The position numbers and the translations under genes are program-made. From the IMG/VR virus record IMGVR_UViG_3300050821_008877, positions 1 to 29,810 of that record: a stretch of 29,810 nucleotides of DNA, one strand, 5' to 3'. The notes beneath the pieces were generated by a model, which worked only from the letters and a program-made list of their open reading frames with translations, searched no databases and had not been told where the DNA came from. Source of the stretch: a virus. Shown in pieces: positions 1,719 to 27,181 of this stretch (within the stretch, counting starts at the first letter, position 1; every line of letters starts with the position of its first letter).

Positions 1719-1740
1719 TAAATACTGAGATCGGTATTTA
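1719..1740. promoter_or_regulatory. Divergent RGTATTTA inverted repeat between chaperone and tape measure genes
   Basis: TAAATAC (1719-1725) and GTATTTA (1734-1740) are perfect 7-base inverted arms around an 8-base spacer. Read on each strand, TATTTA lies exactly eight bases before an ATG: the chaperone at 1710 on minus and the tape measure at 1749 on plus. The same octamer recurs before four other late genes. I infer a two-faced late promoter or regulator site; the actual role is unknown. Confidence 0.5.
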
Positions 1741-1748
1741 GTAGCGAA

Positions 1749-4028
1749 ATGGCACGTGTTGTTCACGCGGTTGATGTCGAGATTGAAGGTCATTTAGATC
1801 CTAGTCTCGCGAAAGCTGTCGGCATGACGGAGGCGCAATTTAAGCGCTTGGAATCGGCCGCTAAAACGTTCAATTCGCTCGTAAGCAAGATAACGGTTCC
1901 GTCTTCAGTAGTTACCGCTACGGAAAAAATCGATTCGAGTTTGGGCAAAATGGCGAGCCATTCGGACCAGGCCGCACGTCGGGTCGAACATAACTTTCAC
2001 CGAATTGCCGAAGAAGCGCACAAAGCCGGCGAAACGATCCAGAAAAATTTAGCTGGCGCATTTGATCGGGTGCTTGAATCGGCCATGCATATGACTGGGA
2101 TTGGTGGGCTGATTGGCGGAGTCGGCGCTGCATTTGCCGGCGAGGAATTCATGCGCGGCGCATTTGAGGTGCGAGCCGAGCGTGGCGTACTGCAAAACCA
2201 ATTGCGCACACTCTCCGAAAGCCAGGGGCGCGGCTTTCTCTCAAGCCAGATCGATACGTTGTTGCGGAACATGGAAGGTCGCGAGACCGCGGTCCGGTAT
2301 GAACCGTTGCTCGAGACAACGAACATGATGCTTTCAGCGGCACCGCAACGGTTCCAGAACATTGAACAAGTGCACAAGATGCTTTCCCAGCTTGCCGATG
2401 TGTCACGCACTCCGCAGGCGTTTGCAATGGTCAGCCAGGCGTTTACCCGGATCCTGGCCGAAGGCAAGGTTGACGCGCAACATCTGAATGAAATGTCGAT
2501 CGATACCGGGTTTGCGTTCAAAAAAGCGATGGCTGACGCACTTAAGGTTACCCCGGAACAGCTTTCTGAGATGCTAAAAAAGCATAAAATACCCGGTGAA
2601 AAACAGATTGAGGCTTTGATGCAAAGTTTCGATGTGTTGACCGGGCCGGGCGGGCCGGCATATCATCATGCCGAGGCGCAACTTGCTGGGCTTGCCGGTC
2701 TTCAGGAACGGTTTATCGGGCATTGGCGCGATTTTCAGGAATCGTTCGGGATGCAATTGGAAAATTTCATTTCGCCGATTGCTGAAAAGGTCTTCTCGAT
2801 CCTTACGCCGGCGGCGCTTACCCATGCGTTTGATGGGCTCACAAGCTACGTCAAAGGCATTGCGACCGCACTTGCCAGTCTGGTTGATCATTTGCAGCAT
2901 GGGCGCGCTGCAGCCGAGCTCCAGGCGATCGGGACCGCGTTCAGTAATTTCTTTTCCCGGGTGTTTGGCGCGGGGAGTTTTGCTGGATTCTTTAAAGAGG
3001 TTCAAGATCCGATTAACGGAATTCATACGGTGCTGACCGAGACCGGCAAAAATTGGGCCGATGTGACCAGCGGCAAATGGGCCGACTCGATCGCGAAAGC
3101 TTTGGAAACCGTTCGCAAAACTGTCGAATTCATTTCCCAGCATTTCGAGGCGATCAAAAATACGTTGCTCGGTATTTTTACCGCAATGGGAATTGCCAAG
3201 GCGACCGAGGTCGGCAAAGGAGTCTGGGATTTTGCCAAAGCAATCTGGAACATCGGTCGAATGATCGTTACCGCCGGCCAGGTTACTGTAATGGGAGGCG
3301 CTGGAGGCGCGGCCGCGGAAAAAGCCGAGGGCACAGTTGCAAAAGCCGCCGGCTTTTCAGGATGGGGGGTGCTCGGGGGCGGCGTATTGGCTGGCGTGAT
3401 CATGCAACAGATCGAAAAGGCGGCTTACCGGAATTTGCCGCCCGGGTACTCGCTCGGCGCCGAAAGCCAGAAACGCGGTGACGTTCAGAGAGCACAACAA
3501 AACCTTGATGCACTTCGCGATCAGCAAGCGTTGCAGCACAATGTGAGCGCCGAAAGCATTCATGCGGCCGAGCAACAGTTGGCCGCGACCCAAGCCGCAC
3601 TTGCCGATTATCTGCGGATTAAATCGGCGGCCGATCAGACGGTCAGCGTTATGGAAAAGTTGCCGGGAATCGCGAGTCAGACGGCGAGCGCTTTCGCCAG
3701 TGTCGCGGCCGCAGCAAATGCGGCTAATCGGCCGAGCCCTTTGTTGCCGGTTCCCGCGCTTACTCCGGTCGCGCCGCATGCTGTCGGTGGGATCTTTACC
3801 CGGCCGCATATCGGACTAATCGCTGAACGCGGACCCGAAGCGATTATCCCTCTTCGCGGCCGGCATGGTGGTTCGGCAATCACGGTTAATTCGAACCCGA
3901 CAATCAATCTGGGGGCTGGTGGGGATGTCGGTTCGTTGCAAGATATTTTAGCCGAGCACGCCCGCCAGATCGCTGCGGAAGTGCGCCGGATCTTTGAAAT
4001 GGAGAATGAGGAGATTGCGCCGGTATGA
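1749..4028 (+). CDS. Tail tape measure protein
   Basis: This 759-residue protein sets tail length. An N-terminal coiled region is followed by a lambda/TIGR02675-type tape measure domain at roughly residues 130-290 (LRTLSESQGRG, VSQAFTRILAEGKVDAQHLNEM). Then come hydrophobic glycine-rich stretches (about 450-560), an alanine/glutamine helix (about 585-640), and the usual C-terminal signature HAVGGIFTRPHIGLIAERGPEAIIPL near residues 676-701. At the usual 0.15 nm per residue the tail would be about 110 nm, which is an estimate. The start was chosen after the GGTATTTA motif; no clear Shine-Dalgarno precedes it. Its stop overlaps the next start in ATGA. Confidence 0.93.
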   Translation: MARVVHAVDVEIEGHLDPSLAKAVGMTEAQFKRLESAAKTFNSLVSKITVPSSVVTATEKIDSSLGKMASHSDQAARRVEHNFHRIAEEAHKAGETIQKNLAGAFDRVLESAMHMTGIGGLIGGVGAAFAGEEFMRGAFEVRAERGVLQNQLRTLSESQGRGFLSSQIDTLLRNMEGRETAVRYEPLLETTNMMLSAAPQRFQNIEQVHKMLSQLADVSRTPQAFAMVSQAFTRILAEGKVDAQHLNEMSIDTGFAFKKAMADALKVTPEQLSEMLKKHKIPGEKQIEALMQSFDVLTGPGGPAYHHAEAQLAGLAGLQERFIGHWRDFQESFGMQLENFISPIAEKVFSILTPAALTHAFDGLTSYVKGIATALASLVDHLQHGRAAAELQAIGTAFSNFFSRVFGAGSFAGFFKEVQDPINGIHTVLTETGKNWADVTSGKWADSIAKALETVRKTVEFISQHFEAIKNTLLGIFTAMGIAKATEVGKGVWDFAKAIWNIGRMIVTAGQVTVMGGAGGAAAEKAEGTVAKAAGFSGWGVLGGGVLAGVIMQQIEKAAYRNLPPGYSLGAESQKRGDVQRAQQNLDALRDQQALQHNVSAESIHAAEQQLAATQAALADYLRIKSAADQTVSVMEKLPGIASQTASAFASVAAAANAANRPSPLLPVPALTPVAPHAVGGIFTRPHIGLIAERGPEAIIPLRGRHGGSAITVNSNPTINLGAGGDVGSLQDILAEHARQIAAEVRRIFEMENEEIAPV

Positions 4029-4243
4029 GCCCGACTTACACAACCGTTCAGGGTGAAATGTGGGATTTTATCTCGCGCAAAGTCTACGGATCGGAACGGT
4101 TTATGAATGTCTTGATTCGTGCGAACCGGGCTTATTTGCAGGTTGTCTCTTTCGATTCCGGTGCGGTGCTGCAAACGCCGGAAATCGTTACCACAAGAAA
4201 AATCAGTTCGGTCCCCTGGGGAACCATTTATGCATTGAACTAG
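4025..4243 (+). CDS. Tail protein gpX-like (LysM-type baseplate/tail protein)
   Basis: A 72-residue protein matching the P2 gpX type. It has a TVQGEMWDFISRKVYGSERF core (the GDTWD..A.RVYG pattern), then LIRANRAY and a C-terminal proline-containing strand. The fold is LysM-like, and in P2-type phages it helps complete the tail near the baseplate hub. It overlaps the tape measure stop by four bases (ATGA), suggesting translational coupling, and precedes the gpD hub gene by seven bases, the P2-like order. Confidence 0.85.
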   Translation: MSPTYTTVQGEMWDFISRKVYGSERFMNVLIRANRAYLQVVSFDSGAVLQTPEIVTTRKISSVPWGTIYALN

Positions 4244-4250
4244 TGCAAAA

Positions 4251-5153
4251 ATGGCAGCTTTAACCGACATTCCCGGGATCGGGCCGGCACTCGCCGGAAT
4301 GCTTTCGCAGGTGCGTTCGGCTCGGCCCATCATTTCGTATTCTGGTGCCGATGTGAGTCAGGAGGTTTACCCGTCTCTTCAGGAATTGACATACAAAGAA
4401 GGGACCGAATCCAAAGGTGACAATGTCGAGCTCAAGCTTGCCGATCCCGAGGGTCGGTTCCGCCTTACCTGGTCACTCAAAGTCGCCGTCCCGCTCAATC
4501 TGTCTCTGGAATCGCAAAATTGGTTGTACCAAGGTGAACGCACCCATCGCGATTGCGGTTCATTCGAGATTAAACGGATCTCGATCCGGCAAGATAAACG
4601 GTCCGGAACGATTGTCTCTCTATCGGCGTCAAGTATCCCGGTATCATGTTCGGGCCGGCTCGAGCGCAAAAACCGAGCATGGACTAAAACAACACTCAAA
4701 GCGATCGCGCAACAGGTCGCAACCGATAACGGATTGGCGCTCCGGTACATCGCCAAGGAAAACCCGAAGATTGCCCGAACCGATCAACATGATGAATCCG
4801 ATTTCGTGTTACTCGATCGGCACGCACATGAAAACGATCTTTTCGTTAAGGTTAAACAGAAAACGCTCTGGATCATTTCCAAGGAAGAGCTCGAGCAACA
4901 GGCGCCGGTTGGCACGATCGTTTGTCCGACCCCGGGGAATCCCGGTGGGGTGAACGGGCGCGGCGGGATCACCTCATGGGAGATCAGTGAATCTACGGAA
5001 GACATCTACAAGGCGGCCGAGGTCAAGTTCCGAAATAATAAGACGGGCATGACCGTGACCGGGACCGCAACCGATCCGAAAGCGGTTGTCGGGTCGGTCT
5101 TGCGCGACAAATACAATCCGCATACCGAATCTAGCCAGGATACCGAAGGTTGA
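4251..5153 (+). CDS. Baseplate hub / late control protein gpD, N-terminal part (split gene)
   Basis: A 300-residue protein corresponding to most of gpD-type hub proteins. A beta domain comes first (ISYSGADVSQEVYPSLQ, LKLADPEGRF), then the second hub domain with DQHDESDFVLLDRHAHENDL, a classic gpD/gp27-like segment, and the ITSWEISESTEDIYKAAEV strand. P2 gpD is about 387 residues, and this one lacks the final 100. Those are encoded in the next ORF in a different frame, starting inside the stop of this gene. The hub trimer connects tail tube to the gpV spike. Whether the two chains assemble as a split hub or arise from a recent frameshift cannot be decided here. Confidence 0.85.
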   Translation: MAALTDIPGIGPALAGMLSQVRSARPIISYSGADVSQEVYPSLQELTYKEGTESKGDNVELKLADPEGRFRLTWSLKVAVPLNLSLESQNWLYQGERTHRDCGSFEIKRISIRQDKRSGTIVSLSASSIPVSCSGRLERKNRAWTKTTLKAIAQQVATDNGLALRYIAKENPKIARTDQHDESDFVLLDRHAHENDLFVKVKQKTLWIISKEELEQQAPVGTIVCPTPGNPGGVNGRGGITSWEISESTEDIYKAAEVKFRNNKTGMTVTGTATDPKAVVGSVLRDKYNPHTESSQDTEG

Positions 5154-5476
5154 ATCTGCCGCCTTTAATTTCGAATCCCTGGCAGCTTGTCAAGTTGCCG
5201 GCGCCATTGCCGGTTGCCGAAACCGATTCCGGCGCGGTCACTAAAGCCCATCGGACGGCCCGCGGCAAACTCAAGAAAAAGAATCGGAAAGGCAAAAAAC
5301 ATCGAATCGTTGTGCCGCTTAATCTGACGCTTGAAGCCGGCAACGTTTACACCCTGGAAGGGTTCTCGCCGGATTTTGACGGCAACTGGTTGCTTATCGA
5401 ATGTGAACACAAGTTCGTCGGCAAGAGTGGGAGCACGACCAGCCTTGATTTCGAGAAGGTGATCACCGGGTACTAG
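5150..5476 (+). CDS. Baseplate hub gpD, C-terminal part as a separate ORF
   Basis: A 108-residue ORF starting with TTG in a TTGA overlap with the previous stop. An AGGA lies about nine bases upstream. It carries the terminal gpD domain: a lysine-rich linker (KLKKKNRKGKKH), VPLNLTLEAGNVYTLEGF, then FDGNWLLIECEH and SGSTTSLDFEKVITGY, which is the usual gpD ending. It is in the -1 frame relative to the first half. That frame has a TAG about 18 bases upstream of the TTG, so a frameshift could only happen within a very short stretch and no slippery heptamer is visible there. Termination-reinitiation is the simpler reading. Confidence 0.78.
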   Translation: MNLPPLISNPWQLVKLPAPLPVAETDSGAVTKAHRTARGKLKKKNRKGKKHRIVVPLNLTLEAGNVYTLEGFSPDFDGNWLLIECEHKFVGKSGSTTSLDFEKVITGY

Positions 5477-5481
5477 ATTTT

Positions 5482-6117
5482 ATGTTTCGCGATTACGGGA
5501 GTGCGGAAAAGCCCGATCCTACGGGTTTCAATGTCGTTCGCAGCGGCATGGTTGTCGATCGGCGGTTCGGTAAAAACGGGCCGGAAGTCCTAATCGCTTA
5601 CAATGACCGCGGCGTGACTAGCGATTGGTTGCCGGTTGGTAACCAGGGGTCAGCCGGTGCGACCATGTTCTATTGTCCGCGGCTCAATGATAATGTCACC
5701 GTGCTGCATTATCCGACAGCTATCGAACAGGGAATCGTTGTTTGCACTAACCCGACTAAAAACGGGGGATCGATTCAGCCGGATTCAATCAATTCGGTGG
5801 CGATGCTTGCCGATGACGGGTCGCAGTTTTCCTATAATCCGGATACGAAAACCCTGGCGATCCAGGGGGTAGGCACTATCACGATCTCGGCCAGCGGCGA
5901 TACCTCAATTCAAAGTAACGGCAATTTAAATGCGATTGTCGGCGGGAACTTGTCGGCATCGGCCAATGGATCGGCAACGGTTACCGCACCTACTATCACG
6001 CTGCAAGGCAACGTCACGATCACCGGTAACCTGACCGTGCAAGGCGTGACCAGTTTGCAACTGGCGAGCGCCAACCCGCATTGCACGAATACGGACGGGA
6101 GCGGTGGCGGAACTTGA
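5482..6117 (+). CDS. Baseplate assembly protein gpV (tail spike)
   Basis: A 211-residue protein of the gpV/spike family. An N-terminal OB-like domain has RSGMVVDRRFGKNGPEVLI and SDWLPVGNQGSAG, GDNV-like LNDNVTVLHYPT, and EQGIVV. A repetitive beta-helix follows from about residue 125 (TITISASGDTSIQSNGNLNA, then TITLQGNVTITGNLTV). The spike trimer caps the tube and pierces the outer membrane. The C-terminus ends in PHCTNTDGSGGGT rather than the usual HxH tip motif, so iron binding at the tip is uncertain. It follows the split hub by five bases, with a T-rich leader and no Shine-Dalgarno. Confidence 0.88.
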   Translation: MFRDYGSAEKPDPTGFNVVRSGMVVDRRFGKNGPEVLIAYNDRGVTSDWLPVGNQGSAGATMFYCPRLNDNVTVLHYPTAIEQGIVVCTNPTKNGGSIQPDSINSVAMLADDGSQFSYNPDTKTLAIQGVGTITISASGDTSIQSNGNLNAIVGGNLSASANGSATVTAPTITLQGNVTITGNLTVQGVTSLQLASANPHCTNTDGSGGGT

Positions 6118-6121
6118 GCTG

Positions 6122-6129
6122 AGTATTTA
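6122..6129 (+). promoter_or_regulatory. RGTATTTA motif before gpU gene
   Basis: AGTATTTA, with TATTTA at 6124-6129, stands nine bases before the ATG at 6139 and just after the gpV stop. It is one of six such sites preceding late genes in this window. The function is inferred, possibly a -10-like element or a late-factor site. Confidence 0.4.
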
Positions 6130-6138
6130 CTCACCGAT

Positions 6139-6609
6139 ATGGTCATCGGTTCTTTAGGTGTGATCCCGTTTGTTGCCGGATACGGTACGGCGAACACGTT
6201 CCATTCGATCCATAAAGCCAATAAAATTTCTTACGTGAAACATGCGGTGATTGCCGGTCTTGATCTGATTGAAGCTACCGGGGATGACCCGATCGATATT
6301 CAGATTGAGATGATGTTTTTTGCGCCCTATACATTGCCACCGTCCCAATCGATTCCCGCAGTTGAAGCTTTATTGGCCGCCAAGATTCCGATGCCTCTCT
6401 TTGCCGGTGATGCGCCGGTCGGCCGCGGGATCATGTCATTGTTCGTGATTGAATCTTTGTCGGTCAGGATGACGAAATGGGTTGGCGCCGAGCTCGCGAT
6501 TGCGACACTCGATGTGAAACTGGTCGAATACTCTAATCCGTTCAACCTGGCCGGGCCGCTCGGTGCGCTGGCGAACCTGGCCGGGAGCGTTGTCGGCCGA
6601 ATCATTTAG
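6139..6609 (+). CDS. Tail protein gpU-like (tail terminator/completion)
   Basis: A 156-residue protein with the P2 gpU pattern: an N-terminal beta hairpin, KISYVKHAVIAG around residues 30-41, then a conserved IMSLFVIESLSVRMTKW block, and the final strand ATLDVKLVEYSNPF. gpU caps or completes P2-type tails. The C-terminal 25 residues are small and hydrophobic (GPLGALANLAGSVVGR). The start follows the AGTATTTA motif and lacks a ribosome binding site. The order V, U, W, J, I differs from P2, where U lies after the tape measure, but similar orders occur in other myophages. Confidence 0.75.
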   Translation: MVIGSLGVIPFVAGYGTANTFHSIHKANKISYVKHAVIAGLDLIEATGDDPIDIQIEMMFFAPYTLPPSQSIPAVEALLAAKIPMPLFAGDAPVGRGIMSLFVIESLSVRMTKWVGAELAIATLDVKLVEYSNPFNLAGPLGALANLAGSVVGRII

Positions 6610-6619
6610 GGAGCGGGAT

Positions 6620-7093
6620 ATGGCCAACCCGATCAAATCCTATTCGGCGATCGCGAACGGTAAACGCTGGATCTTTGACGGTGCGTTCCAGTTCGATTTC
6701 GATGCGCCGGCAAACTCTGTTCAGGAAGTTTTACAGAACGTTTTTAACATCATCGCGACGCCGTTAGGCACCCAACCGTTGTTTCGATTATTTGGTTCAG
6801 ATCAGAACTGGATCGATTCCCCGGGGAACCTGATCGGGTTTCAGGCGAAAACGGCATTCCTTCTCGCGATCCGGCTTTGGGAACCGCGGGCAAATATTCA
6901 ACAAATCCAGTTCGCGCTTAATCCGCTGGACGTCATGGCCGGCCAGTACACGCTTTCATTGGTTGTCGAGGTGGATTTGTCCCGGTCGATCACGCAAGCG
7001 CTCTACGCACCGCCTAGCGACGCGGCAACGTGGCTTATAGACGGACCGGTTGACGGGGTTCTTTCGGTTCAACAGGAGACCGTCACCGTCTAA
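6620..7093 (+). CDS. Baseplate wedge protein gpW (gp25-like)
   Basis: A 157-residue protein fitting the GPW/gp25 wedge family. It shows FQFDFDAPANSVQEVLQNVF with a following N..ATPLGTQPLFRLFG segment, the place where the family has its typical 'eil.T..GeR' motif. Then comes IRLWEPRANIQQIQF near residue 90. The C-terminal part is extended compared with T4 gp25 (132 residues). An AGGGAG Shine-Dalgarno lies seven bases before the chosen ATG. Upstream ATGs in the same frame lie inside the gpU gene. It works with gpJ and gpI to form the baseplate wedges. Confidence 0.85.
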   Translation: MANPIKSYSAIANGKRWIFDGAFQFDFDAPANSVQEVLQNVFNIIATPLGTQPLFRLFGSDQNWIDSPGNLIGFQAKTAFLLAIRLWEPRANIQQIQFALNPLDVMAGQYTLSLVVEVDLSRSITQALYAPPSDAATWLIDGPVDGVLSVQQETVTV

Positions 7094-7101
7094 GGTATTT
7101 A
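7094..7101 (+). promoter_or_regulatory. RGTATTTA motif before gpJ gene
   Basis: GGTATTTA stands directly after the gpW stop, 11 bases before the gpJ ATG at 7113. A weak GGGTAAAG lies between the two and could serve as ribosome binding site. It is one of six sites of this kind; the function is inferred. Confidence 0.4.
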
Positions 7102-7112
7102 TTCGGGTAAAG

Positions 7113-8291
7113 ATGCCGGATCCATTCGTTAATCTGCCCGCGATCAGTTTCGTCAATACCGATGTTGCCGCACTTCAGAATGCCGTCGTTAAATCATTCC
7201 AAGACATGTGGCTGGCGGATACCGGTGAAACCCTGATTCTCACCCAAGCCGATCGGCGATACCATTTCCTTTTATCGTTGACCGCCTACCTGGTTCAGGA
7301 ACGCGAGCTCATCGACGCATCGGCGAAACAGAACCTTTTGCCGTTCGCGCAAGGCGGATTTCTCGATCAGCTTTGTTCGCTGTACGGTCCGCGTGGGCTG
7401 CGGTTGCCAGCAAGCGCGGCAATTGTCCAGATGAGTTTCACGCTTTCCGCACCGCTTAACACCGATGCGGTGATCCCGGCCGGCACCCTGATCGCTTCGA
7501 CTGATGCGACCGGGCTCGTGTTCGCTACAGTGGCCGATCTGACTATCCCGATCGGCAATTTTATCGGGTATGTCAATGCCGCCTGCCAGACAATCGGGCC
7601 GATCGGCAACGGGTTGTTGGCCAATACAATCACAAATCTTTTAAGCTGGAACGCACCCTTTTCAGTCGCGGCGACCAATGTCGAGACCTCAGCCGGCGGT
7701 GCGGATACCGAAAGCGATTATGCTTACAGCCGGCGCATTTATCTGGCGACGCAATCGTTTTCCAATGCCGGCTCATACGGCGCCTATGAATTCTTTGCGC
7801 TCTCAGCGAGTGCCTCAATCGCGCAAGTCAGCGTTACGGGTCCCGAAGATGGCATTGCACCCGGCAACGTTCTGATCACGGTTCTTTTACAAAACGGCGA
7901 TTTCCCGAATCAGGCCATGCTTGACCTGGTTTATGGTGCGGTTAATCCGGACACGATCCGCGATCTGTGCGCCAAAGTCACCGTTCAGGCGCCGGATCCT
8001 ATCGCTTATTCCGTCTGGGTCGATTATTACATTGATGCGAGCCAGGCGAACCAGGTCACCCAGATCCAAAGCGATGTGAATCTCGCGGTCGCCAATTGGG
8101 TTAATGCGCAAAGGCTGAACCTGAAAGGCTCAATTAACCCATCGCCATTGATCGTGGCGATGATGAACGCCGGCGCAAGTTATGTGATCGTTTCGCAGCC
8201 GACGCACCAAATCTTGACTAAATCGCAGGTGCCGTCGCTGACTAATGATCCGGTTGTCGTTTATGTCGGGACCGAGGCTGACTTGCCATGA
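7113..8291 (+). CDS. Baseplate protein gpJ (Baseplate_J family)
   Basis: A 392-residue wedge protein. Typical Baseplate_J features run in order: LVQERELIDASAKQNLLPFAQGGFLDQL near residues 75-105, VIPAGTLIASTDATGLVF around 135-150, GPIGNGLLANTITNLL, the TSAGGADTESDYAYSRRI motif near 205-220, and a C-terminal region with IAYSVWVDYYID. Family members join the baseplate wedges and trigger sheath contraction. The start is placed at 7113 because the upstream part of the open frame overlaps gpW and does not resemble the family. The stop overlaps the gpI start in ATGA. Confidence 0.92.
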   Translation: MPDPFVNLPAISFVNTDVAALQNAVVKSFQDMWLADTGETLILTQADRRYHFLLSLTAYLVQERELIDASAKQNLLPFAQGGFLDQLCSLYGPRGLRLPASAAIVQMSFTLSAPLNTDAVIPAGTLIASTDATGLVFATVADLTIPIGNFIGYVNAACQTIGPIGNGLLANTITNLLSWNAPFSVAATNVETSAGGADTESDYAYSRRIYLATQSFSNAGSYGAYEFFALSASASIAQVSVTGPEDGIAPGNVLITVLLQNGDFPNQAMLDLVYGAVNPDTIRDLCAKVTVQAPDPIAYSVWVDYYIDASQANQVTQIQSDVNLAVANWVNAQRLNLKGSINPSPLIVAMMNAGASYVIVSQPTHQILTKSQVPSLTNDPVVVYVGTEADLP

Positions 8292-8851: not shown

Positions 8852-8855
8852 CCCT

Positions 8856-8863
8856 GGTATTTA
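8856..8863 (+). promoter_or_regulatory. RGTATTTA motif before the collar-type fibre gene
   Basis: GGTATTTA begins four bases after the gpI stop and ends ten bases before the fibre ATG at 8874. No Shine-Dalgarno is visible between. It is one of six sites; the function is inferred. Confidence 0.4.
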
Positions 8864-8873: not shown

Positions 8874-10277
8874 ATGGCCAACTTCTCTCAGGTCACCGTT
8901 ACCGATGCCGGCCGGCAATTGATCAATTCACTGGTTGCCGGTCAAACGATCGAGATCCCGCAGGCGCAAGTCGGGAGCGGTACGCCGGCAACCGGCGTTG
9001 ATCTCGATGGATTAACACAACTGGTCCATTTCGTCATGGACGCGGATGCCACAAGCGCCAATGACCAGGTTCTTTATCAGACGACCGTCCGGATCCGGGT
9101 CTCGAGCCAGTATGCGCCATATCAATTTCAACTAAATGAAATCGGGATTTTTGCGGCTATTGGGGCTTCGACCCCGATCTTGTTCGCTTATGCAAGCGCC
9201 GGAACTACCGGCGACACAATTACGCCGGACCCGACTCCGAGTGCCGTCGTTTACGATTACGCGGTTCTGATTCAGTACGAGAGCGATGTTCCGACCAATA
9301 CAACGGTCACAATAACTCCAGTCTTGGAACTTCACGCGGCAACCCATCGCGGCAACGGGATCGATCCGATCGGGCTGGCCGATACTACCGCAAGCGGGTT
9401 GCTTACTACAGTGCCGGGTGATGCGACGAAAGTTTTGCTTGGGTCAAATCCGCAATCCTGGGGACCGATCCCTTTACCGGCTGGCGTCATGATGGAATAT
9501 GGCGGCGCGACTGCACCGCCTGGTTGGTTGCTTTGTGATGGCTCGGCAATCAGCCGGACAATATTCGCCGCACTTTACGCCGTGATCGGCACGACCTACG
9601 GCGCCGGGGACGGAAGCGTGACGTTCAATTTACCGGATGCGCGCGGGCGCACCATGATCGGTGCGGGGCAAGGAACCGGGCTTTCCTCGCGTACTCTCGG
9701 CGCGAAAGGAGGCGAGGAATCGCATGTTCTTTCCATGCCCGAGCTCGCCGCGCACACCCATACCGTTAATGATTTGGGGCATACCCACACTTTGAATGAA
9801 GGGAGCGGGCACAGTCACGTGGTCACTGATCCGGGTCACGCCCACACACTCAATGAGGGTGCCGGCCATACTCATGGAATAACACAAACCGCGCATGCTC
9901 ACGATATTGATGATACTGGCCATACGCACAATACCGAAACCCTGAATTTCACTTACACGCCGCAACCGCCGATCATGCAAGTGCCACTTTATGATCCCGT
10001 TCCGAATCAATGGTGGGTGCGGGATATGCGTGCTGTGTCGAGTAAGAATGCAACTGGCGTCAATGTTAAGCCAGCCTTAGCGAATCTGGTAATGGCTACG
10101 GTTACGACCGGCGCATGGATCGCGAATTCAGTAAGTCGAGTCACGATTAATCTAGCCCAAACGGGGATGGCTATAATTTCGCAAGTCACCGGGATCACAA
10201 ACGCTAATACCGGTGGCAATGGGGCGCATAATAATATGCAACCATTTCTGGCAGTGAACATGATCATCAAGACCTGA
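8874..10277 (+). CDS. Tail fibre with N-terminal gpH-like domain, tail collar domain and His-rich rod
   Basis: A 467-residue fibre. Residues 1-150 resemble the N-terminal baseplate-binding domain of gpH-type fibres (SQVTVTDAGRQLINSL, FQLNEIGIFA). Around 154-180 is an ATHRGNGIDPI linker. A phage tail collar domain follows at about 203-275 (PAGVMMEYGGATAPPGWLLCDG, NLPDARGRTMIG). Between about 293 and 356 there are seven or more H-x-H pairs in a repetitive stretch. In T4 gp12 and related fibres such pairs bind metal along the trimer axis. The C-terminus ends in NNMQPFLAVNMIIKT, typical of this family. It likely binds the host surface. The first part of the open frame overlaps gpI and was excluded. 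Confidence 0.88.
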   Translation: MANFSQVTVTDAGRQLINSLVAGQTIEIPQAQVGSGTPATGVDLDGLTQLVHFVMDADATSANDQVLYQTTVRIRVSSQYAPYQFQLNEIGIFAAIGASTPILFAYASAGTTGDTITPDPTPSAVVYDYAVLIQYESDVPTNTTVTITPVLELHAATHRGNGIDPIGLADTTASGLLTTVPGDATKVLLGSNPQSWGPIPLPAGVMMEYGGATAPPGWLLCDGSAISRTIFAALYAVIGTTYGAGDGSVTFNLPDARGRTMIGAGQGTGLSSRTLGAKGGEESHVLSMPELAAHTHTVNDLGHTHTLNEGSGHSHVVTDPGHAHTLNEGAGHTHGITQTAHAHDIDDTGHTHNTETLNFTYTPQPPIMQVPLYDPVPNQWWVRDMRAVSSKNATGVNVKPALANLVMATVTTGAWIANSVSRVTINLAQTGMAIISQVTGITNANTGGNGAHNNMQPFLAVNMIIKT

Positions 10278-10286
10278 ATCCTTCTG

Positions 10287-10682
10287 ATGCCGTACCCGAA
10301 CACATTAATCGCGACGTCGTTTGAGGATGCGTTCAGTATCCCGCTCGCCTGTTTCCGGAACCAGGGATGGAATCCTTCGTTTCTGATTAGTGATGACAAT
10401 GATTCCCCGATCGATATCTCTGGGGATCGCCTGGCGCTCATGATCGTGCCGCTATCTTATGACGGAATCACAATCGGGGATCCGATTTTAACCGATAAAA
10501 CGTTCACCGTCGATTCAACCGGTGCCGCGGTCTTTAACGTGTCTAAAACCGATCTGGACGGGCTTTCGCCCGAGGGCACCTATCAATGGTTTCTTGAACG
10601 CCAGGAACTCGGCCAGACCGATTCCAGCGTGGTTGTAGCCGGTCCTTTGCAGGTCAGCGATTCGCCTCCGTTTCCGCCATGA
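10287..10682 (+). CDS. Small baseplate/fibre-associated protein, Ig-like (BppU-N-like)
   Basis: A 131-residue all-beta protein. It has the pattern DNDSPIDISGDRLALMIVP, a middle strand ending in GAAVFNVSK, EGTYQWFLER, and a final strand before SDSPPFPP. This layout resembles the N-terminal Ig-like domain of BppU-type baseplate proteins and is shared with the gene at 11146-11514, so the two may be paralogues. It lies in the fibre cassette and is probably a virion surface component. There is no Shine-Dalgarno, and it overlaps the next gene by four bases. Confidence 0.6.
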   Translation: MPYPNTLIATSFEDAFSIPLACFRNQGWNPSFLISDDNDSPIDISGDRLALMIVPLSYDGITIGDPILTDKTFTVDSTGAAVFNVSKTDLDGLSPEGTYQWFLERQELGQTDSSVVVAGPLQVSDSPPFPP

Positions 10683-13855: not shown

Positions 13856-13903
13856 ACGCCCTTTTAAGGCGTGGGTTGTGGGTTCGAGCCCCACCCAACC
13901 CAG
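13856..13903 (+). other. attP core: 3' half of a tRNA-Lys(UUU) gene
   Basis: The stretch reads as the 3' half of a tRNA. It has an anticodon stem ACGCC/GGCGT around the 7-base loop CTTTTAA (anticodon TTT, Lys; 13856-13872) and a 5-base variable region. The T arm GTGGG-TTCGAGC-CCCAC follows (13878-13894), then the acceptor strand CCAACCC and discriminator A (13895-13902). No D arm or 5' acceptor strand precedes it; the sequence upstream is a T-rich tract. The integrase gene lies 190 bases downstream. Temperate phages commonly carry such a tRNA 3' end as attP core so that integration restores the host tRNA. Phage genes on both sides fit attP rather than attL or attR. Confidence 0.85.
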
Positions 13904-14023
13904 ATCCTTATTTCTCCTCGAGAAACTGCTCTAATACTTGATCCGCAGGTCTGTGGTAGTCTCCAAATTTGCCGACTTGGAATCAGACAAAAAAGACGTA
14001 TCGGACAAAGAAACATTGATTTT

Positions 14024-14075: not shown

Positions 14076-14094
14076 AAAAAACAGGAACCAAGAA

Positions 14095-15282
14095 ATGAAA
14101 GTTAAATTCTACGAAACAAGAAATTGCTGGCGGGTCATTGTGCCGGCTCGGTTGACTGATACCGGCAAAGATCAGGCCCGATACTTCAAAACCAAGGAGG
14201 AAGGCGAAACCGAGGTTCGCCGGATACTCGGCCGCGGTGCATCGGCCAAACCGCAACTTAATGATCGTCAGAATGCGATCCTTTCAATGGCAGAAACCGA
14301 AGGGTTAAACCTCGAGGATATTCAAACAGCTTTCCGCCATTATCGCGCGACTGTCCTTAACGTCAGCAAACGTGCTCATCTGTTCGAGCTTGTGGAAAAG
14401 TTTCTCGAGCGCCAGGTGCACGAGGGTCGAGCACCCCGCACCCTCGACGATGATCGGCAACGATTATCGAAACTATGCACCTCATTTGAAAATATCGACG
14501 TTTCCCGGCTGACCGAGACTGGACTCCGGCAATATCTCGAGCACTACCCGCCCGGATCCAATCGCCGAAGCCATTATAAAGCGGTGCGGAAATTCATTCG
14601 GTGGGCGCATGAATCCGGTTACCTGGCAATCGATCTCATGGCCCGGATCCGACCTCTTGATCAATGGGGCGTCAACAACGAGATCGTGCCAATCGAAGAT
14701 TTTCGCCGACTGCTTTTCGTGACGGCCGGCCTCGAGCCGATCGAACCGGCTGAGATTCCCACTACCCGCTATATCGGGTTGTTCCCCTATTTCGTGCTTG
14801 GGGGCCTGGCCGGCATGCGGCGAGCCGAGCTCTTACGGGATCGTAATAGCCAATCGATTCTCGAATGGAGCGATATTCTTTGGGATGAAAATCTAATCTC
14901 GGTGCGGGATGAAGTCGCCAAACAAACCCGGGCCGCGGATCGACGTCGGTTTATTCCCTTAGAGCCGGCAACCCGGGAATGGTTGAATCTGGTTCGCCAA
15001 GATTCTGGCCCGGTCGTTAATATCTGGCAATCAACGCACACCAAGCTTTGTCGGGAACTCTTCGGCAAGCTCGAGATTGATCTTCCGGAGAACGGTCTGC
15101 GTAACTCCTATGCGTCCTATGCGCAAACGTTCCGGAGTGCGGGCGAGGTTGCGAAAGCTTGTGGCGATCTTGAATCGACGATCAAACGGTTCTACACGCA
15201 ATTGCGTAAACCTGAGAGCGGGCGTCCCTGGTTCGATATCCGGCCGAATGTTAGCCGGAAAATCATTTCAATCGCAGTTTGA
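14095..15282 (+). CDS. int: Tyrosine recombinase (phage integrase)
   Basis: A 395-residue tyrosine recombinase expected to join attP to the host tRNA-Lys gene. An N-terminal arm-binding region comes first, then a SAM-like core-binding domain at about 95-180. The catalytic domain has Arg242 in GMRRAEL, a likely Lys276, and Arg336 in NGLRNSYASY. Asp358 sits at the usual His/Trp position, and the nucleophile is probably Tyr367 in KRFY. The usual HxxR histidine is Asn333 here. I associate this variant with integrases of Verrucomicrobiota and related phyla, which is the main host clue. It lies beside attP, and two small genes follow before a strong terminator. The ATG comes after ACAGGAACCAAGAA. 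Confidence 0.9.
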   Translation: MKVKFYETRNCWRVIVPARLTDTGKDQARYFKTKEEGETEVRRILGRGASAKPQLNDRQNAILSMAETEGLNLEDIQTAFRHYRATVLNVSKRAHLFELVEKFLERQVHEGRAPRTLDDDRQRLSKLCTSFENIDVSRLTETGLRQYLEHYPPGSNRRSHYKAVRKFIRWAHESGYLAIDLMARIRPLDQWGVNNEIVPIEDFRRLLFVTAGLEPIEPAEIPTTRYIGLFPYFVLGGLAGMRRAELLRDRNSQSILEWSDILWDENLISVRDEVAKQTRAADRRRFIPLEPATREWLNLVRQDSGPVVNIWQSTHTKLCRELFGKLEIDLPENGLRNSYASYAQTFRSAGEVAKACGDLESTIKRFYTQLRKPESGRPWFDIRPNVSRKIISIAV

Positions 15283-18646: not shown

Positions 18647-18649
18647 TAA

Positions 18650-21570: not shown

Positions 21571-21602
21571 ACCCAAAAAAACCAAAAACAAAAGAATACC
21601 TA

Positions 21603-22279: not shown

Positions 22280-22287
22280 AGCGCATA

Positions 22288-22635: not shown

Positions 22636-22652
22636 AACAGGAACCAAAAACC

Positions 22653-22952
22653 ATGAAGAAACAAATGCGTGATGATGTGCTCAACAGAAACTACGAATTG
22701 GCAAAGCGAAACCTGCGTCGCGCTTACGCGACAATCTGTAACCTCGATGATCAGGATTTGATCGGCGGTGCGCGAGCTTATGCGCTCGATGCCGTTGAAG
22801 CCTTGGAAATCATTCTCGGGTTCCGCGATGAGAACGGAACCGAGATCCCCTTGGCGCCTCTCAGTCCCGAGATGCAACAAAAGATCGACGAATGGACCCG
22901 CTATTATGCCAGTTTACACTCAAAACCTCCCCCGAAAGAACTTCTCTCCTAA
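22653..22952 (+). CDS. Hypothetical helical protein
   Basis: A 99-residue protein: KQMRDDVLNRNYELAKRNLRRAYATICNLDDQDLIGGARAYALDAVEALEIIL, two long helices, then a short tail PLSPEMQQKIDEWTRYY. No family is recognised. AGGAA lies nine bases before this ATG; an ATG at 22632 overlapping the previous stop lacks such a site. The longer frame that reaches back to 22260 is an overlap with earlier genes and was excluded. Its end overlaps the primase-helicase start by 47 bases. Confidence 0.55.
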   Translation: MKKQMRDDVLNRNYELAKRNLRRAYATICNLDDQDLIGGARAYALDAVEALEIILGFRDENGTEIPLAPLSPEMQQKIDEWTRYYASLHSKPPPKELLS

Positions 22953-24996
22953 TCCGAAAGGCCCGATTTTCCCGAAATGGGTCTGGGATTATTTACAAAC
23001 CAAAATTCCCAACGGCAACCGCAACAACATGGTGTTTCATGTTGCCGGGCAATTCCGCGATGCCCGGATACCGATCGCTGAAGCGTTGCCGCAAATTACT
23101 GCATGTGCGGTCCGAGATGGGTTAAGCGTCGCGGAAGCCGAGAAATCAATCCGGAGCGCTTATTCGATGGCGCCGCGGGAACCTTTAGGCGGCAACGGCA
23201 ACGGCTCGTATTCGCCCAACGGCGCGCATAGGCGGCCGCCTGGCGCATTTTCCGGTTCGGGTAATGGCAATATAGCGGGACCGAAGTCCGGCGCGTCTGC
23301 AGCTAACGTGACGCAATTGCCGGCACCGATTGCCGACGGGTTCCGGGTTTTACTCGAAAACATCTTTTTGGCCGGTGAAGGGGTGGCACTTTCCGGCATC
23401 GTCATCGAACCGAACGGCGATCGCCGGCCAGGCCCGGGTGACGTGCTCTCCCGGGAACGATGGCTCGAGCGAATTAATCAGGCGCCGATCGGTCAGATTT
23501 ATTTTGATTCCGACGGCGCTTACATTCGAATAAATCCAATGTGTCCGGGTGGCCGGCGTGATCTGGACGTGACAGATTTGCGACATGTCCTGGTCGAGTT
23601 CGACGAGGACGAAAACGGAAACCGGATTCCGAAACTTACTCAGTACCAGGCGCTTGTGAGCTCTGGGTTTCCGATCGCCGCGATTATTGATTCGGGCAAC
23701 AAATCGCTTCACGGCCTGGTCCGGGTCGATGCCCGGACTGATCGCGGCCTGTTCGACGCCAGGCGCGATATCGTTTTTAAGTATTTCGCGGCCTGGAACG
23801 TCGACCCGAAAAACTCGAATCCGAGTCGTTATTCCCGGTGTCCGGAAATTGCGCGAGCCCTTTACGATGACGTCGGAAATGTCACCGGAACCGTGAGCCA
23901 GGAACTTCTGGCAATCGGTCTCGGCCCGACGTCATGGGCTGAGTGGGAAAAGGCGCAAGAGGATGAAGTGCGGAAACAATTTCGTGCGTTAATCCGGCTT
24001 CGCGATCCTGACGAACTGCCGCACATTGCACCGTTGCAACTGGTCGAAGGGTTGCTTTACCAAGGCGCCAAACTCTCGTTTTCGGGCGGGTCGAAAATGT
24101 TCAAAAGCTGGAATTTTCTTCATTTCTGCTTTTGTGTCGCGAACGGGTTGCCGTTTCTCGGGTTTCCGACGGCCCGGGTGCCGGTCGCGATTTTTGATCT
24201 CGAGCTTTTCGAGTTCGATCTCTGGTTCCGGCTCAAGACGATTGCCGACGTTTACAAGTTGCTCGGGAACCCGTTTGCGAATCTGCGGGTCGTGCCGTTA
24301 CGCGGGCGTTACGTCAATTTCGGCGATCCAGTTTTTCAAGAGGTTTTTATCGAGGTTTTATCTGAGTTCGCCGTTGGCCTTTTCGGGATCGATCCGCTCT
24401 ACAAAGCTTTGGCCAACATTGAGCGTTACGACGAAAATTCGAACTCGGATGTTACCCGGGTTTTGCGGCCGTTTGAAGAGTTCACGCTTTCGGCTCGAGC
24501 TTCCTTCGTTTATTGCCAGCATTTTTCCAAGGGAAACCAATCCGCCAAAGATCCGATTGACCGGATTGCCGGCGGCGGCGCGTTCGGGCGCGATCCGGAT
24601 GTGCTTTCGACCTTTACCGCACACCGGGAGCCCGACGCTTTCACGATCAACGTATCGCAACGAAGTTTCGCGTTCATTGATCCGTTCGTTGTCCGATGGC
24701 AATTCCCGGTTTTCGTTCGTGACGATAGCTTGGATCCGGACAACCTGGCGCCTGGTCGATTCGGCCGGCAAAAAGATTCGTGCCGGCAAGAGCTCATCAT
24801 GGCGGCCTTACGCGGCGCTGAAGATTCCGGCGGTTTATCCGCACCGCGATTGTGTGCTGCGACCGGGATCCCGAAACGGTCGTTTTTCCGATACGTAAAA
24901 GGATTGATCGACAAAGGCGAAGTCATGAAATCGGTCGCGACGGGCACCTATCAACTAGGCCTTAAAAATGCCCAAACCTGGCATCAAACCATTTAA
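22906..24996 (+). CDS. Primase-helicase: PrimPol-like domain fused to RepA-like (AAA_25) ATPase
   Basis: A 696-residue replication protein. A helical N-terminal domain (about 20-90) resembles PriCT-type domains. Residues about 165-320 look like an AEP primase: VLVEFDEDENG, IIDSGNKSLHGLVRVDA, and NPSRYSRCPE. The ATPase part has a RepA-type P-loop FSGGSKMFKSW near 391-401, Walker B GLFGIDPLYKAL near 490, and QHFSKGN...GGGAFGRDPD near 545-565. A winged helix closes the protein (about 628-685). It most likely starts and unwinds phage DNA replication. The start at 22906 is chosen because the earlier frame has no family character. Confidence 0.8.
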   Translation: MPVYTQNLPRKNFSPNPKGPIFPKWVWDYLQTKIPNGNRNNMVFHVAGQFRDARIPIAEALPQITACAVRDGLSVAEAEKSIRSAYSMAPREPLGGNGNGSYSPNGAHRRPPGAFSGSGNGNIAGPKSGASAANVTQLPAPIADGFRVLLENIFLAGEGVALSGIVIEPNGDRRPGPGDVLSRERWLERINQAPIGQIYFDSDGAYIRINPMCPGGRRDLDVTDLRHVLVEFDEDENGNRIPKLTQYQALVSSGFPIAAIIDSGNKSLHGLVRVDARTDRGLFDARRDIVFKYFAAWNVDPKNSNPSRYSRCPEIARALYDDVGNVTGTVSQELLAIGLGPTSWAEWEKAQEDEVRKQFRALIRLRDPDELPHIAPLQLVEGLLYQGAKLSFSGGSKMFKSWNFLHFCFCVANGLPFLGFPTARVPVAIFDLELFEFDLWFRLKTIADVYKLLGNPFANLRVVPLRGRYVNFGDPVFQEVFIEVLSEFAVGLFGIDPLYKALANIERYDENSNSDVTRVLRPFEEFTLSARASFVYCQHFSKGNQSAKDPIDRIAGGGAFGRDPDVLSTFTAHREPDAFTINVSQRSFAFIDPFVVRWQFPVFVRDDSLDPDNLAPGRFGRQKDSCRQELIMAALRGAEDSGGLSAPRLCAATGIPKRSFFRYVKGLIDKGEVMKSVATGTYQLGLKNAQTWHQTI

Positions 24997-25267
24997 CCGA
25001 AAGCCGAACTTGTGGACCGTGCTTTGGATACGCCGCGGAGCGGGTTTGCCGAGCCTGTCGAGTGCTGTGACTAGGGCCAGGCAGCGTTTCGCTGCCATAG
25101 TGCCAAAAATGACCTTTAGGTCATTTGGCACTGGCACTAGGCACACCCGAACCGCGGTGAATCCAATTGGCGGTCCGTCAATGGCATCGAATTTCAGAAA
25201 CAAAAAAGAAAAAAGAAAACATGCCGACCTATATCGAAAACCAGCAACTCAAACTCGCGATTCCTAA
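24968..25267 (+). CDS. Doubtful ORF invaded by a structured repeat
   Basis: A 99-residue frame whose first part (MPKPGIKPFNRKPNLWTVLWIRRG) looks protein-like and starts inside the helicase gene. From about codon 33 to 59 it is encoded by the three-way-junction element at 25067-25144, and the rest is basic and unstructured. A small gene disrupted or extended by insertion of that element is possible, or no gene at all. The vWA gene starts in another frame before this one ends. Confidence 0.25.
   Translation: MPKPGIKPFNRKPNLWTVLWIRRGAGLPSLSSAVTRARQRFAAIVPKMTFRSFGTGTRHTRTAVNPIGGPSMASNFRNKKEKRKHADLYRKPATQTRDS
25067..25144. repeat. 78-nt three-way-junction element (double hairpin in an outer stem)
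   Basis: Outer arms 25067-25079 and 25132-25144 pair at 11 of 13 positions. Inside stand two hairpins. GGCAGCG-TTT-CGCTGCC (25080-25096) is perfect. AGTGCCAAA+TGACC / GGTCA+TTTGGCACT (25099-25132) has 14 pairs with an AA bulge and loop TTTA. One base is shared between hairpin 2 and the outer stem. It resembles REP-like or non-autonomous mobile repeats of bacterial chromosomes. The origin is inferred. Confidence 0.6.
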
Positions 25268-25901
25268 ACCGCAACCGCGACGAATAGCGATTGCTCGCAG
25301 CGGGCCATTAGAGATCGGGTTCACCTTGGATCGATCAAGCTCAATGGGCCATTTGCGCATGGCCGCATTACGCGGGTTCAACCAATTGTTACTTGAGCAA
25401 CGGGCAAACTCGGTGATCTCATTCTCGACGTTCTCGGATTCGATCAAGTTCGTTTATGACCGCGTTGCCGGAGGCGAGGTGCGAAACCTCGAGCCGGCCG
25501 ATTATGTCCCGTACGGCAATACGGCGCTCTTGGACGGGATCGGCACCATGATCGAACACATTGCCAAGACGTGGGATCCGGCCGAGCTCAAAAGCCCGGT
25601 ACTGATCGGCATACTGACCGATGGTGCGGAGAATTCGAGTGACCGATTCACGGTTCATCAGATTTTTAAGGCAATCCATTACCGGCGGTTGACGTGTCTT
25701 TGGGAATTCCTCTTTCTGTGCGCCGATGAGCGCGGCGTTGATTACGGGCTCAAGCTCGGCATCAAGCGCTCGAACATTGTGCGGTTCGATGCTAACGAGG
25801 GGGAAATCACTCAGCTTTTGCTCAGAGTTTCGCGCGCGGTCACGGCATTTCGGCTCGGTGATCGGAATTTTGCGCGGTTGCTGCTTACCGATAAACCATG
25901 A
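25221..25901 (+). CDS. von Willebrand factor A (vWA) domain protein
   Basis: A 226-residue protein that is nearly all vWA domain. The metal site (MIDAS) is complete: DRSSSM (Asp37, Ser39, Ser41), Thr101 in YGNTALLDG, and Asp134 in ILTDGAEN. Other strands are NSVISFSTFSDSIKF and WEFLFLCADE. vWA domains bind partner proteins through Mg. Phage copies lie near replication genes, their task being unknown. It has an A-rich leader (AAAAAAGAAAAC) instead of a proper Shine-Dalgarno, like the SSB-like gene. The next gene starts in ATGA. Confidence 0.88.
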   Translation: MPTYIENQQLKLAIPKPQPRRIAIARSGPLEIGFTLDRSSSMGHLRMAALRGFNQLLLEQRANSVISFSTFSDSIKFVYDRVAGGEVRNLEPADYVPYGNTALLDGIGTMIEHIAKTWDPAELKSPVLIGILTDGAENSSDRFTVHQIFKAIHYRRLTCLWEFLFLCADERGVDYGLKLGIKRSNIVRFDANEGEITQLLLRVSRAVTAFRLGDRNFARLLLTDKP

Positions 25902-26116
25902 ATCAACCACCGATGAGCAACCTTTGCATATCCTGCGGTAAACGTGCCGTTAATTGGCCGCGCGTTTGTCCTGATTGTACTGATCAGGAGGCTCAAGCGA
26001 TATTGGCGTCGGAGGACTACGAGGAGTGCAAAAGTTGCGGGATGCTTTACGACGGCGGGATGCGTTGCACCTATTGCGGTGATCCGGATCCGTTGGATCA
26101 GGGCGAGGCCCTATGA
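25898..26116 (+). CDS. Zinc-ribbon protein with four CxxC pairs
   Basis: A 72-residue protein with CISC, CPDC, CKSC and CTYC, making two zinc ribbons in tandem (about residues 10-27 and 45-61), joined by an acidic helix. Zinc ribbons bind nucleic acid or protein partners. It follows the vWA gene in ATGA overlap and overlaps the next small gene, so the unit vWA plus zinc ribbon is translated together. No catalytic residue is seen. Confidence 0.75.
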   Translation: MNQPPMSNLCISCGKRAVNWPRVCPDCTDQEAQAILASEDYEECKSCGMLYDGGMRCTYCGDPDPLDQGEAL

Positions 26117-26292
26117 CACCGCAAGATCAAGATGACGCCAAAGTGCGCGCGGATTTGGCAAAAATAGCGCTCCTAGTCGATTTGCAACTTCCTTTTGGCT
26201 GGGGGTTTGTTGTGCTCGAACTCGGCCGGTTGCGGCAACGGGTGGCCGAACTTGAACGTCATCTTGCAAACTTAGGAATCGGCGAGGCATGA
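26113..26292 (+). CDS. Small helical protein (59 residues)
   Basis: The ATG overlaps the previous stop (ATGA). The protein has an acidic helix, a short hydrophobic middle (LQLPFGWGFVVLEL) and a leucine-spaced helix RLRQRVAELERHLANLG that could form a coiled coil. Its end overlaps the next gene in ATGA again. Strict overlap on both sides supports it as a gene although it is short. The function is unknown. Confidence 0.6.
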   Translation: MTPQDQDDAKVRADLAKIALLVDLQLPFGWGFVVLELGRLRQRVAELERHLANLGIGEA

Positions 26293-26480
26293 AGCGCAAT
26301 CACTTCGAAAAAACTTACCAGGTGACTGCGGATCATTTTACGGCCGGCGTTGTCGTGTCGGGCGATCGGATCGTTCGCACGGCGCCGATTCTGTCCTGGT
26401 TACGTCGCGAACCGTTCGGCCGATTGCAACTGATTGCGGCCGGCAACCGATGGAAAATTGAGGAGGTCGCAACTCGGTGA
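26289..26480 (+). CDS. Small hypothetical protein (63 residues)
   Basis: A basic beta-rich protein: YQVTADHFTAGVVVSGDRIVRTAPILSWL, then FGRLQLIAAGNRWKIEEV. Small phage proteins with the 'HFcaGvv..g..v..aaPIl.wm.G' pattern are common in phages of several hosts, and this fits them. The function is unknown. It begins in an ATGA overlap and ends in a GTGA overlap with the next tiny ORF. Confidence 0.65.
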   Translation: MKRNHFEKTYQVTADHFTAGVVVSGDRIVRTAPILSWLRREPFGRLQLIAAGNRWKIEEVATR

Positions 26481-26587
26481 GCCCTTACGAAGAAAGAGTT
26501 TTTTGGCTCGGCAAATTTCAGGCCCGGCAAGAGGTTTGCTCGTGGGTTCAGGGATTTCCAGGGGAAAATCGTAATCTGTCAGATTAG
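26477..26587 (+). CDS. Tiny ORF (36 residues)
   Basis: A GTG start in a GTGA overlap gives MSPYEERVFWLGKFQARQEV and a short end. GAGGTCGC lies just upstream. Only the overlap pattern, continuous with four preceding genes, supports it. It has no motif, and it could be a chance frame. Confidence 0.35.
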   Translation: MSPYEERVFWLGKFQARQEVCSWVQGFPGENRNLSD

Positions 26588-26592
26588 AGAGA

Positions 26593-26742
26593 ATGACACC
26601 GAAACAGGAAAATTGTCAGGGATCACTGGTCATGGGTGATGACGGAATCTGGCGGTGTCCGAAGTGTGGGCTGGAAGTCAGGCCGAAACCGACCAAGCCA
26701 AAAAAGAAACCCGACGCAAACCGGCGCCGGGTTCCGCGATGA
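26593..26742 (+). CDS. Small zinc-ribbon-like basic protein (49 residues)
   Basis: MTPKQENCQGSLVM, then WRCPKCGLEV and a strongly basic proline tail (RPKPTKPKKKP, RRRVPR). One CPKC pair plus a single earlier Cys gives a partial zinc-knuckle look. The tail suggests nucleic acid binding. TTAGAGAGA precedes the start. It is too short for a firm call. Confidence 0.45.
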   Translation: MTPKQENCQGSLVMGDDGIWRCPKCGLEVRPKPTKPKKKPDANRRRVPR

Positions 26743-26780
26743 ATGAAGACGATTAACAAAATGATTTTTAATGCATTTCA

Positions 26781-26969
26781 ATGAACCGGGCAATTACACA
26801 AAAATTTGATCGGCTCAAAGCTTACTTGGATCGGATCCGAGACGATCTCCGGGCCGGCGATCCGGTTCAAGCTATGGCCGACACAGCCGAGCTCGCCGAG
26901 ATCGCACGCCGCCTGCATGATGATTTTGCCGCGGTTGCTAACGGCGAATTACGAAAGGCGGTGGAGTGA
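26781..26969 (+). CDS. Small helical protein (62 residues)
   Basis: An all-helical protein: KFDRLKAYLDRIRDDLRAGDPVQAMADTAELAEIARRLHDDFAAV. The heptad-like spacing of Leu, Ile and Ala suits a helical hairpin. No Shine-Dalgarno is visible before the ATG. Proteins of this look ('i...L..g....a.a.laEla.lar.l...l') are frequent in phage genomes without known function. The next ORF begins one base after the stop. Confidence 0.55.
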   Translation: MNRAITQKFDRLKAYLDRIRDDLRAGDPVQAMADTAELAEIARRLHDDFAAVANGELRKAVE

Positions 26970-27152
26970 TTGGCTGAGGAATCTAAGCCGACCCAATCCG
27001 GTTATTTCTGGTCAAGTATGACCGGCACGGTCGTCAACATCGATCATAAGGATGATGGCTTAGAACGGCGATTAGGTGAGGGTTTGCCGGCAATGAACGA
27101 GAAAGCTTGGGCAATGGTGTGCGCTCTCTTTAACGATAGTCCGCAGATATAA
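26970..27152 (+). CDS. Hypothetical small protein (60 residues, TTG start)
   Basis: The frame starts with TTG directly after the previous stop, with AAGGCGG eight bases upstream. An ATG at codon 17 would give only 44 residues. The sequence SGYFWSSMTGTVVNIDHKDDGLERRLGEGLP shows no known motif. Moderate support comes from tight packing and the absence of any other frame here. Confidence 0.4.
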   Translation: MAEESKPTQSGYFWSSMTGTVVNIDHKDDGLERRLGEGLPAMNEKAWAMVCALFNDSPQI

Positions 27153-27165
27153 AGCTTTCAGTGCC

Positions 27166-27173
27166 GGTATTTA
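27166..27173 (+). promoter_or_regulatory. RGTATTTA motif before the holin-like gene
   Basis: GGTATTTA stands with its end eight bases before the ATG at 27182, the same spacing as at the tape measure and chaperone genes. It marks the first lysis gene, as would be expected for a late signal. The function is inferred. Confidence 0.4.
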
Positions 27174-27181
27174 AGCAATCA

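Follow-up and report, generated by a model that had tools for sequence, protein, structure and literature searches.

Why do several virion genes of an uncultured phage start a few nucleotides behind the same octamer, RGTATTTA? The stretch in which the octamer was noticed, referred to here as the window, is a 29.8-kb virus record whose 5′ end lies inside the sheath gene and which lacks the head and terminase genes. An earlier note, made without database searches, had listed seven copies, six of them ahead of supposedly late genes. It read the octamer as a late promoter of the −10 type whose mRNAs would have little or no leader, with a translation signal or an RNA-processing site as alternatives. 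The coordinates and strands of all seven copies held, as did the six spacings to ATG, and no other copies are present on either strand, as seen in Table 1. One hundred dinucleotide shuffles gave a mean of 0.78 copies and a maximum of 3, compared to the 7 observed, so the note's estimate of one or two by chance was slightly generous. Six of the seven copies sit 8–11 nt ahead of an ATG. The remaining one was correctly said to have no ATG behind it, and we now read it as sheath coding sequence because it spells three sheath codons and recurs at the same codons in the relative L137 (10461). The claim that most of the six genes lack a Shine-Dalgarno also held: none of them (0/6) carries a GGAG/AGGA/GAGG-type word, whereas many other genes in the window do. 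The label "late" is inferred from the functions of these genes and does not rest on expression.

Table 1. Octamer copies in the window and the genes that they accompany
Feature	Position	Strand	Remarks
Late motif AGTATTTA	1719..1726	-	8 nt to ATG (1710) of the minus-strand tail assembly chaperone
Late motif GGTATTTA	1733..1740	+	8 nt to ATG (1749) of the tape measure gene
Back-to-back pair TAAATAC-N8-GTATTTA	1719..1740	.	Serves the divergent chaperone and tape measure genes (putative)
Late motif AGTATTTA	6122..6129	+	9 nt to gpU (6139)
Late motif GGTATTTA	7094..7101	+	11 nt to gpJ (7113)
Late motif GGTATTTA	8856..8863	+	10 nt to the collar/tail fibre gene (8874)
Late motif GGTATTTA	27166..27173	+	8 nt to the holin-like 81-aa gene (27182), head of the lysis group
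Octamer copy in the sheath gene, chance/coding, outside the set	458..465	+	Codons GGT ATT TAC (Gly-Ile-Tyr)
Tail assembly chaperone, single gene inverted relative to its neighbours	1291..1710	-	Identity from position and length
Tape measure protein	1749..4028	+	PHROG 167
gpU tail protein	6139..6609	+	PF06995
Baseplate J protein (gpJ)	7113..8291	+	PF04865
Collar/tail fibre protein	8874..10277	+	Identity supported
81-aa holin-like protein, followed by GH46 and amidase lysis genes	27182..27427	+	Holin identity inferred

The chaperone had no match in Pfam or PHROG, and no family was found for the holin-like protein itself. On the minus strand at 1115-1710, the chaperone runs opposite to all its neighbours and is followed by a short ORF (1115-1264), a possible frameshift extension as in P2 E/E′. 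The lysis module includes, beside the amidase, a glycosyl hydrolase family 46 (chitosanase-like) protein at 27443-28138 (PF01374, E 8e-16). Further along the window, at 13868-13905, GGTTCGAGCCCCACCCAACCCA resembles the 3′ half of a tRNA just ahead of an integrase-like gene (14095-15282) and is probably the attP core.

Relatives were collected by searches with gpJ and the sheath. The window's close relatives are L008, which is identical, L009 (74% at the amino acid level) and L137 (79% in the sheath; from the same sample as L009), and a sister group stands at about 50%. The nearest cultured phages reach about 37% or less in gpJ. L009 retains GGTATTTA ahead of gpU and gpJ. L137 retains it ahead of three head-region genes and, as a back-to-back pair with an 8-nt spacer, ahead of the chaperone and tape measure genes (11950/11959), in a geometry identical to that of the window. 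The sister phages carry AGTATTTCT, AGTAGTTC or CGTA(G/A/T)TTA at sites homologous to those of the window. Over approximately 20 related phage contigs and 111 distinct sites, the general motif is [CAG]GTA[GTA]TT[AC], located 5–11 nt ahead of the first gene in late gene groups. RGTATTTA is one form of it, and the sub-clade variants are RGTATTTA, AGTATTTC, AGTAGTTC and CGTARTTA. The comparison with related phages that the earlier note had proposed as a check was, therefore, strongly positive, with the motif kept before homologous genes while its exact letters vary by sub-clade. This conservation does not extend to distant relatives. A looser motif scan gave 83 sites in near relatives against 6.8 expected and 15 in distant relatives against 20.6 expected, and among 56 distant gpJ relatives no enrichment was seen except in L077 (34% identity).

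The placement of the motif was quantified by counting GTANTT(A/C) 4–15 nt before starts in the 12 records with called genes. It precedes 71 starts in total, at a spacing of mostly 5–11 nt with a mode of 8–9. Among starts located behind a gap or a change of strand, 67 of 217 have it, compared to only 4 of 196 where genes are tightly packed (Fisher p 7e-17). GTANTT(A/C) was the best of 840 letter permutations, with 67 such starts compared to a mean of 2 for the 839 others. An unbiased k-mer scan before ORF starts ranked GTATTTA first in the window's clade (7/13 copies at starts, p 2e-10), and the same type of scan placed CGTAGTTA (24/32) and GTATTTCT (16/26) among the highest-ranked words of sister clades. 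Of the 67 motif starts that lie behind a gap or a change of strand, just 6 have a GGAG/AGGA/GAGG word as well. A palindromic operator was ruled out since the motif is strand-oriented, with 2 reverse-complement matches against 71 in the same windows.

Mapping the motif on homologous genes across genomes showed that it stands where a gene group begins and does not mark each start site. It heads gpU in 11/11 genomes, gpJ in 10/12, the fibre gene in 9/12 (G001, G007 and G011 have no motif there), the chaperone in 10/11, a 646-aa head gene in 8/10 and the tube gene in 8/11. It was never found before gpW (0/12) or gpI (0/12), the genes behind gpU and gpJ, nor before the portal-like gene (0/10). For these counts, the chaperone of G010 was taken from a separate gene calling, and two entries of the gene table, the sheath in the window and the hub in G001, are artefacts that the script produced at contig ends. 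Gene orientation differs among the phages: in one sub-clade the gpU–gpW pair is inverted relative to gpJ, and in other sub-clades the chaperone is inverted relative to the tape measure gene. Each inverted unit retains its own motif, and the divergent neighbours share a gap of 36–45 bp that holds two back-to-back copies.

It is mainly these inversions that lead us to favor a promoter over a ribosome signal. An inverted gene that stands alone must have a promoter of its own, and the obvious site for one is the 36–45 bp gap with its two opposed motifs. The rival view is that the octamer is a translation initiation signal replacing the Shine-Dalgarno on mRNAs started elsewhere. Its fixed position 5–11 nt ahead of start codons, the lack of a Shine-Dalgarno in the window's motif genes, and the scarcity of the motif at tightly packed, possibly translationally coupled genes would all be in keeping with this. 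However, the letters vary by sub-clade at homologous genes, and a host ribosome signal should not vary with the phage clade. The motif also has no GGAGG-type letters and no complementarity to the CCUCC anti-Shine-Dalgarno, and for inverted single genes the only room for a promoter is the short gap that the motif pair occupies. Thus, a translation signal, one of the earlier note's alternatives, fits poorly, and we consider it very unlikely.

Another possible explanation is that the motif is an RNA-processing site, the earlier note's second alternative, or a recombinase site for gene inversion. Motif pairs are indeed located at gene inversions, but the genes behind most motif sites have not been inverted. 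Processing is further disfavored since lone inverted genes would still need an upstream promoter. The recombinase site was rejected because there is no motif on the far side of the inverted genes, which are not flanked on both sides (none in the window at 1115-1290). Both can be all but dismissed.

If the motif is a promoter, it appears to stand alone. Late transcription in P2-like phages is understood as host-sigma transcription aided by an activator, and late promoters that depend on P2 Ogr or Mu C are read by the host main sigma while the activator binds further upstream. The 45–50 nt upstream of the motif hold neither conserved columns nor strongly shared words that could represent a P2 Ogr or Mu C-type activator site. 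Nor is there a conserved −35 element: over 69 sites no upstream column exceeded 0.22 bits except the position adjoining the motif, and at 68 sites of the CGTARTTA clade nothing was conserved upstream beyond the four adjoining positions. The phages here resemble P2 in their virion genes, with a gpA terminase and a tail and baseplate of the P2 type, and differ in having no such upstream element.

A candidate reader is encoded beside the terminase. A Pfam Sigma70_r2 search matched three records, and a sigma-like protein of 270–300 aa is encoded directly behind the terminase large subunit (PF05876) in G002, G005 (start of the protein only), G007, G010 and G011. With further loci included, the sigma-like gene is found behind the terminase in every relative that covers this slot. 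One of these is L137, which belongs to the window's sub-clade (profile E 1e-84). No sigma gene was found inside the window, whose bounds exclude the terminase slot, and the window phage's own sigma is inferred from L137. The motif was not found before the sigma gene itself (0/10).

Sequence evidence for the sigma identity is weak for each protein but consistent. Seven of ten members match NCBIfam sigma70-ECF (TIGR02937; best E 2.7e-8), and seven of ten match Pfam Sigma70_r2 (PF04542) weakly, with all but one stretch of the Pfam matches below the curated cut-off. A profile search of the PDB returned sigma factors only (best E 0.009), and a later, more diverse profile returned sigma factors mixed with designed helical proteins and interleukin-8. 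The N-terminal domain is predicted to be sigma region 2. Its AF2 model has a pLDDT of 88, the 21 PDB entries closest to it in fold are without exception sigma factors, and the query TM is 0.72 against T4 gp55 (7d7c_F) and about 0.5–0.78 against other sigma-2 domains, with a best Foldseek E of 0.014 that falls short of strict significance. The full-length model likewise suggests a sigma factor, with no significant E-value. It aligns end to end with two-domain sigmas with a poor superposition, leaving region 4 in question. The family was not found in cultured phages by tblastn, where the one match was marginal (E 0.8). A shallow sigma profile aligned by hhalign with the single phiEco32 gp36 sequence gave no match, which is a weak test.

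Extra sigma-like proteins are encoded after the tail fibre module in G007 (6734-7666), G009 (9496-10359) and L033 (7446-8357). They have a different, repeat-like N-terminal part with a weak NUMOD3 hint, and G007 has three sigma-like genes in all. In G011 the sigma gene is apparently split across the record ends (1-823 and 41941-42135), which suggests that this record of about 42 kb is a nearly complete, circularly permuted genome.

That this sigma reads the motif is inferred solely from their co-occurrence. In G011 the sigma is present with few motif sites, and the 56 distant gpJ relatives are uninformative on this point since none covers a terminase relative. The same −10-like promoter could instead be read by a host sigma, such as an ECF or group 3 factor, or by another phage sigma-like protein. 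In favor of this, one or two further sigma-like genes occur in some relatives (the three phages named above), and the GTA-type −10 core resembles the GTAAAA bound by an engineered sigma-E region 2 (title of PDB 5or5). Also, the host has not been identified; a search by genome scan gave a Desulfosporosinus relative at 36% as its sole match. Against it, no sigma-like protein other than the one next to the terminase is shared by all covered relatives, those of the window's sub-clade included, and the way in which the motif varies by clade suggests that it co-evolved with a reader encoded by the phage. We consider another reader unlikely.

The reading that probably explains the data best is that the octamers are phage-sigma-dependent, single-element late promoters giving nearly leaderless mRNAs. 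In it, phage-specific late promoters would be recognized through the octamer alone, placed at −10, and the sigma-70-family protein encoded behind the terminase large subunit would most likely bring host RNA polymerase to the octamer. With initiation 6–8 bp past the element, as it occurs with phiEco32 gp36, transcripts would begin with the start codon or just a few positions upstream of it, and each late unit would be a nearly leaderless mRNA. Applied to the sites, the 6–8 bp rule places the start between about 3 nt inside and 5 nt before the start codon, mostly within 3 nt. Promoter and start codon would then form one module of about 20 bp, and single genes or pairs could therefore be inverted and still be expressed. 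The promoter role, the transcript start and the late timing are all inferred. The earlier note's −10-like late promoter is, thus, well supported by the unit heads, the inversions, the absence of a −35 element and the sigma-like proteins. Its leaderless or nearly leaderless mRNAs are plausible and remain an inference from spacing, without mapped transcript ends.

Several known systems come close to this scheme. The phiEco32 sigma gp36 uses single-element middle and late promoters without a −35, with starts 6–8 bp downstream (PMC8948821). A phage-encoded sigma (seen here in relatives and not in the window), a single element and the missing −35 are shared, and the start distance is compatible with the 5–11 nt between motif and ATG, again without mapped 5′ ends. 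However, the late motif GTANTT(A/C) does not meet the phiEco32 consensus tAATGTAtA, which only a separate, early-type motif (CGAAATGTA) resembles. Unlike in phiEco32, the motif abuts start codons, and the phages are P2-like with contractile-tail genes rather than podoviruses. Late promoters of T4 have one 8-bp element at −10 and no −35 (PMC2988020). The likeness to gp55 lies in the short −10 element, the many scattered late promoters, and a small divergent sigma with domain 2 whose predicted fold matches gp55 (PDB 7d7c). T4 differs in its TATAAATA octamer (8-bp TATA box), which it uses with gp33 and the gp45 clamp, and the sigma-like protein here is longer (about 270–300 aa) and has a C-terminal region. 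The phiKZ non-virion RNA polymerase is reported to use late promoters of sequence TATG with the G as start site (PMC5312081), likewise a tiny element that allows a start codon at the transcript start. The reader there is a phage multisubunit RNA polymerase, and nothing comparable was seen here. Phage 7-11 late promoters are also read by a phage sigma, gp47, but are bipartite (GTAAtg-16-aCTA; PMC8948821) in contrast to the single element here.

A phage sigma with minimal start-fused promoters would be a separate late solution in uncultured P2-like relatives, and the natural series of motif variants with cognate sigma sequences would be useful for studying −10 specificity. If the reading is true, virion proteins are predicted to be made mainly by leaderless translation, and late genes could change order and strand without loss of expression. 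A bolder version, which we rate slightly less likely than not, is that of a phage lineage with genomes of about 40 kb whose late program runs from self-contained modules of about 20 bp. Each would consist of a −10-only promoter and a start codon, produce a truly leaderless mRNA and depend on the dedicated terminase-adjacent sigma. Late genes would be free to invert and shuffle, promoter letters and sigma would co-diverge between sub-clades, and CGAAATGTA would serve another gene class.

This second motif lies 5–9 nt ahead of starts outside the late region in the CGTARTTA sub-clade, and 8 of 20 copies of its GAAATGTA form are before starts (p 2e-14). It was seen before the ATG of non-late genes in G002, G009, G010 and G012 (e.g., G010 32535, 35435 and 36439), often shortly after an AAAANCC(C)CG stretch. 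The occurrence of this second motif is not correlated with that of the extra sigma-like genes and, therefore, no reader was assigned to it. Within the window, two non-late starts (14080-14094 and 22636-22653) share the leader AACAGGAACCAARAA before the ATG and have a Shine-Dalgarno, unlike the motif-headed genes. Another class of start-proximal repeat was seen in G005, where early genes at 3500-5500 are preceded by GTCAGTGCAACTCAACTCTCAACACAACA-ATG repeats.
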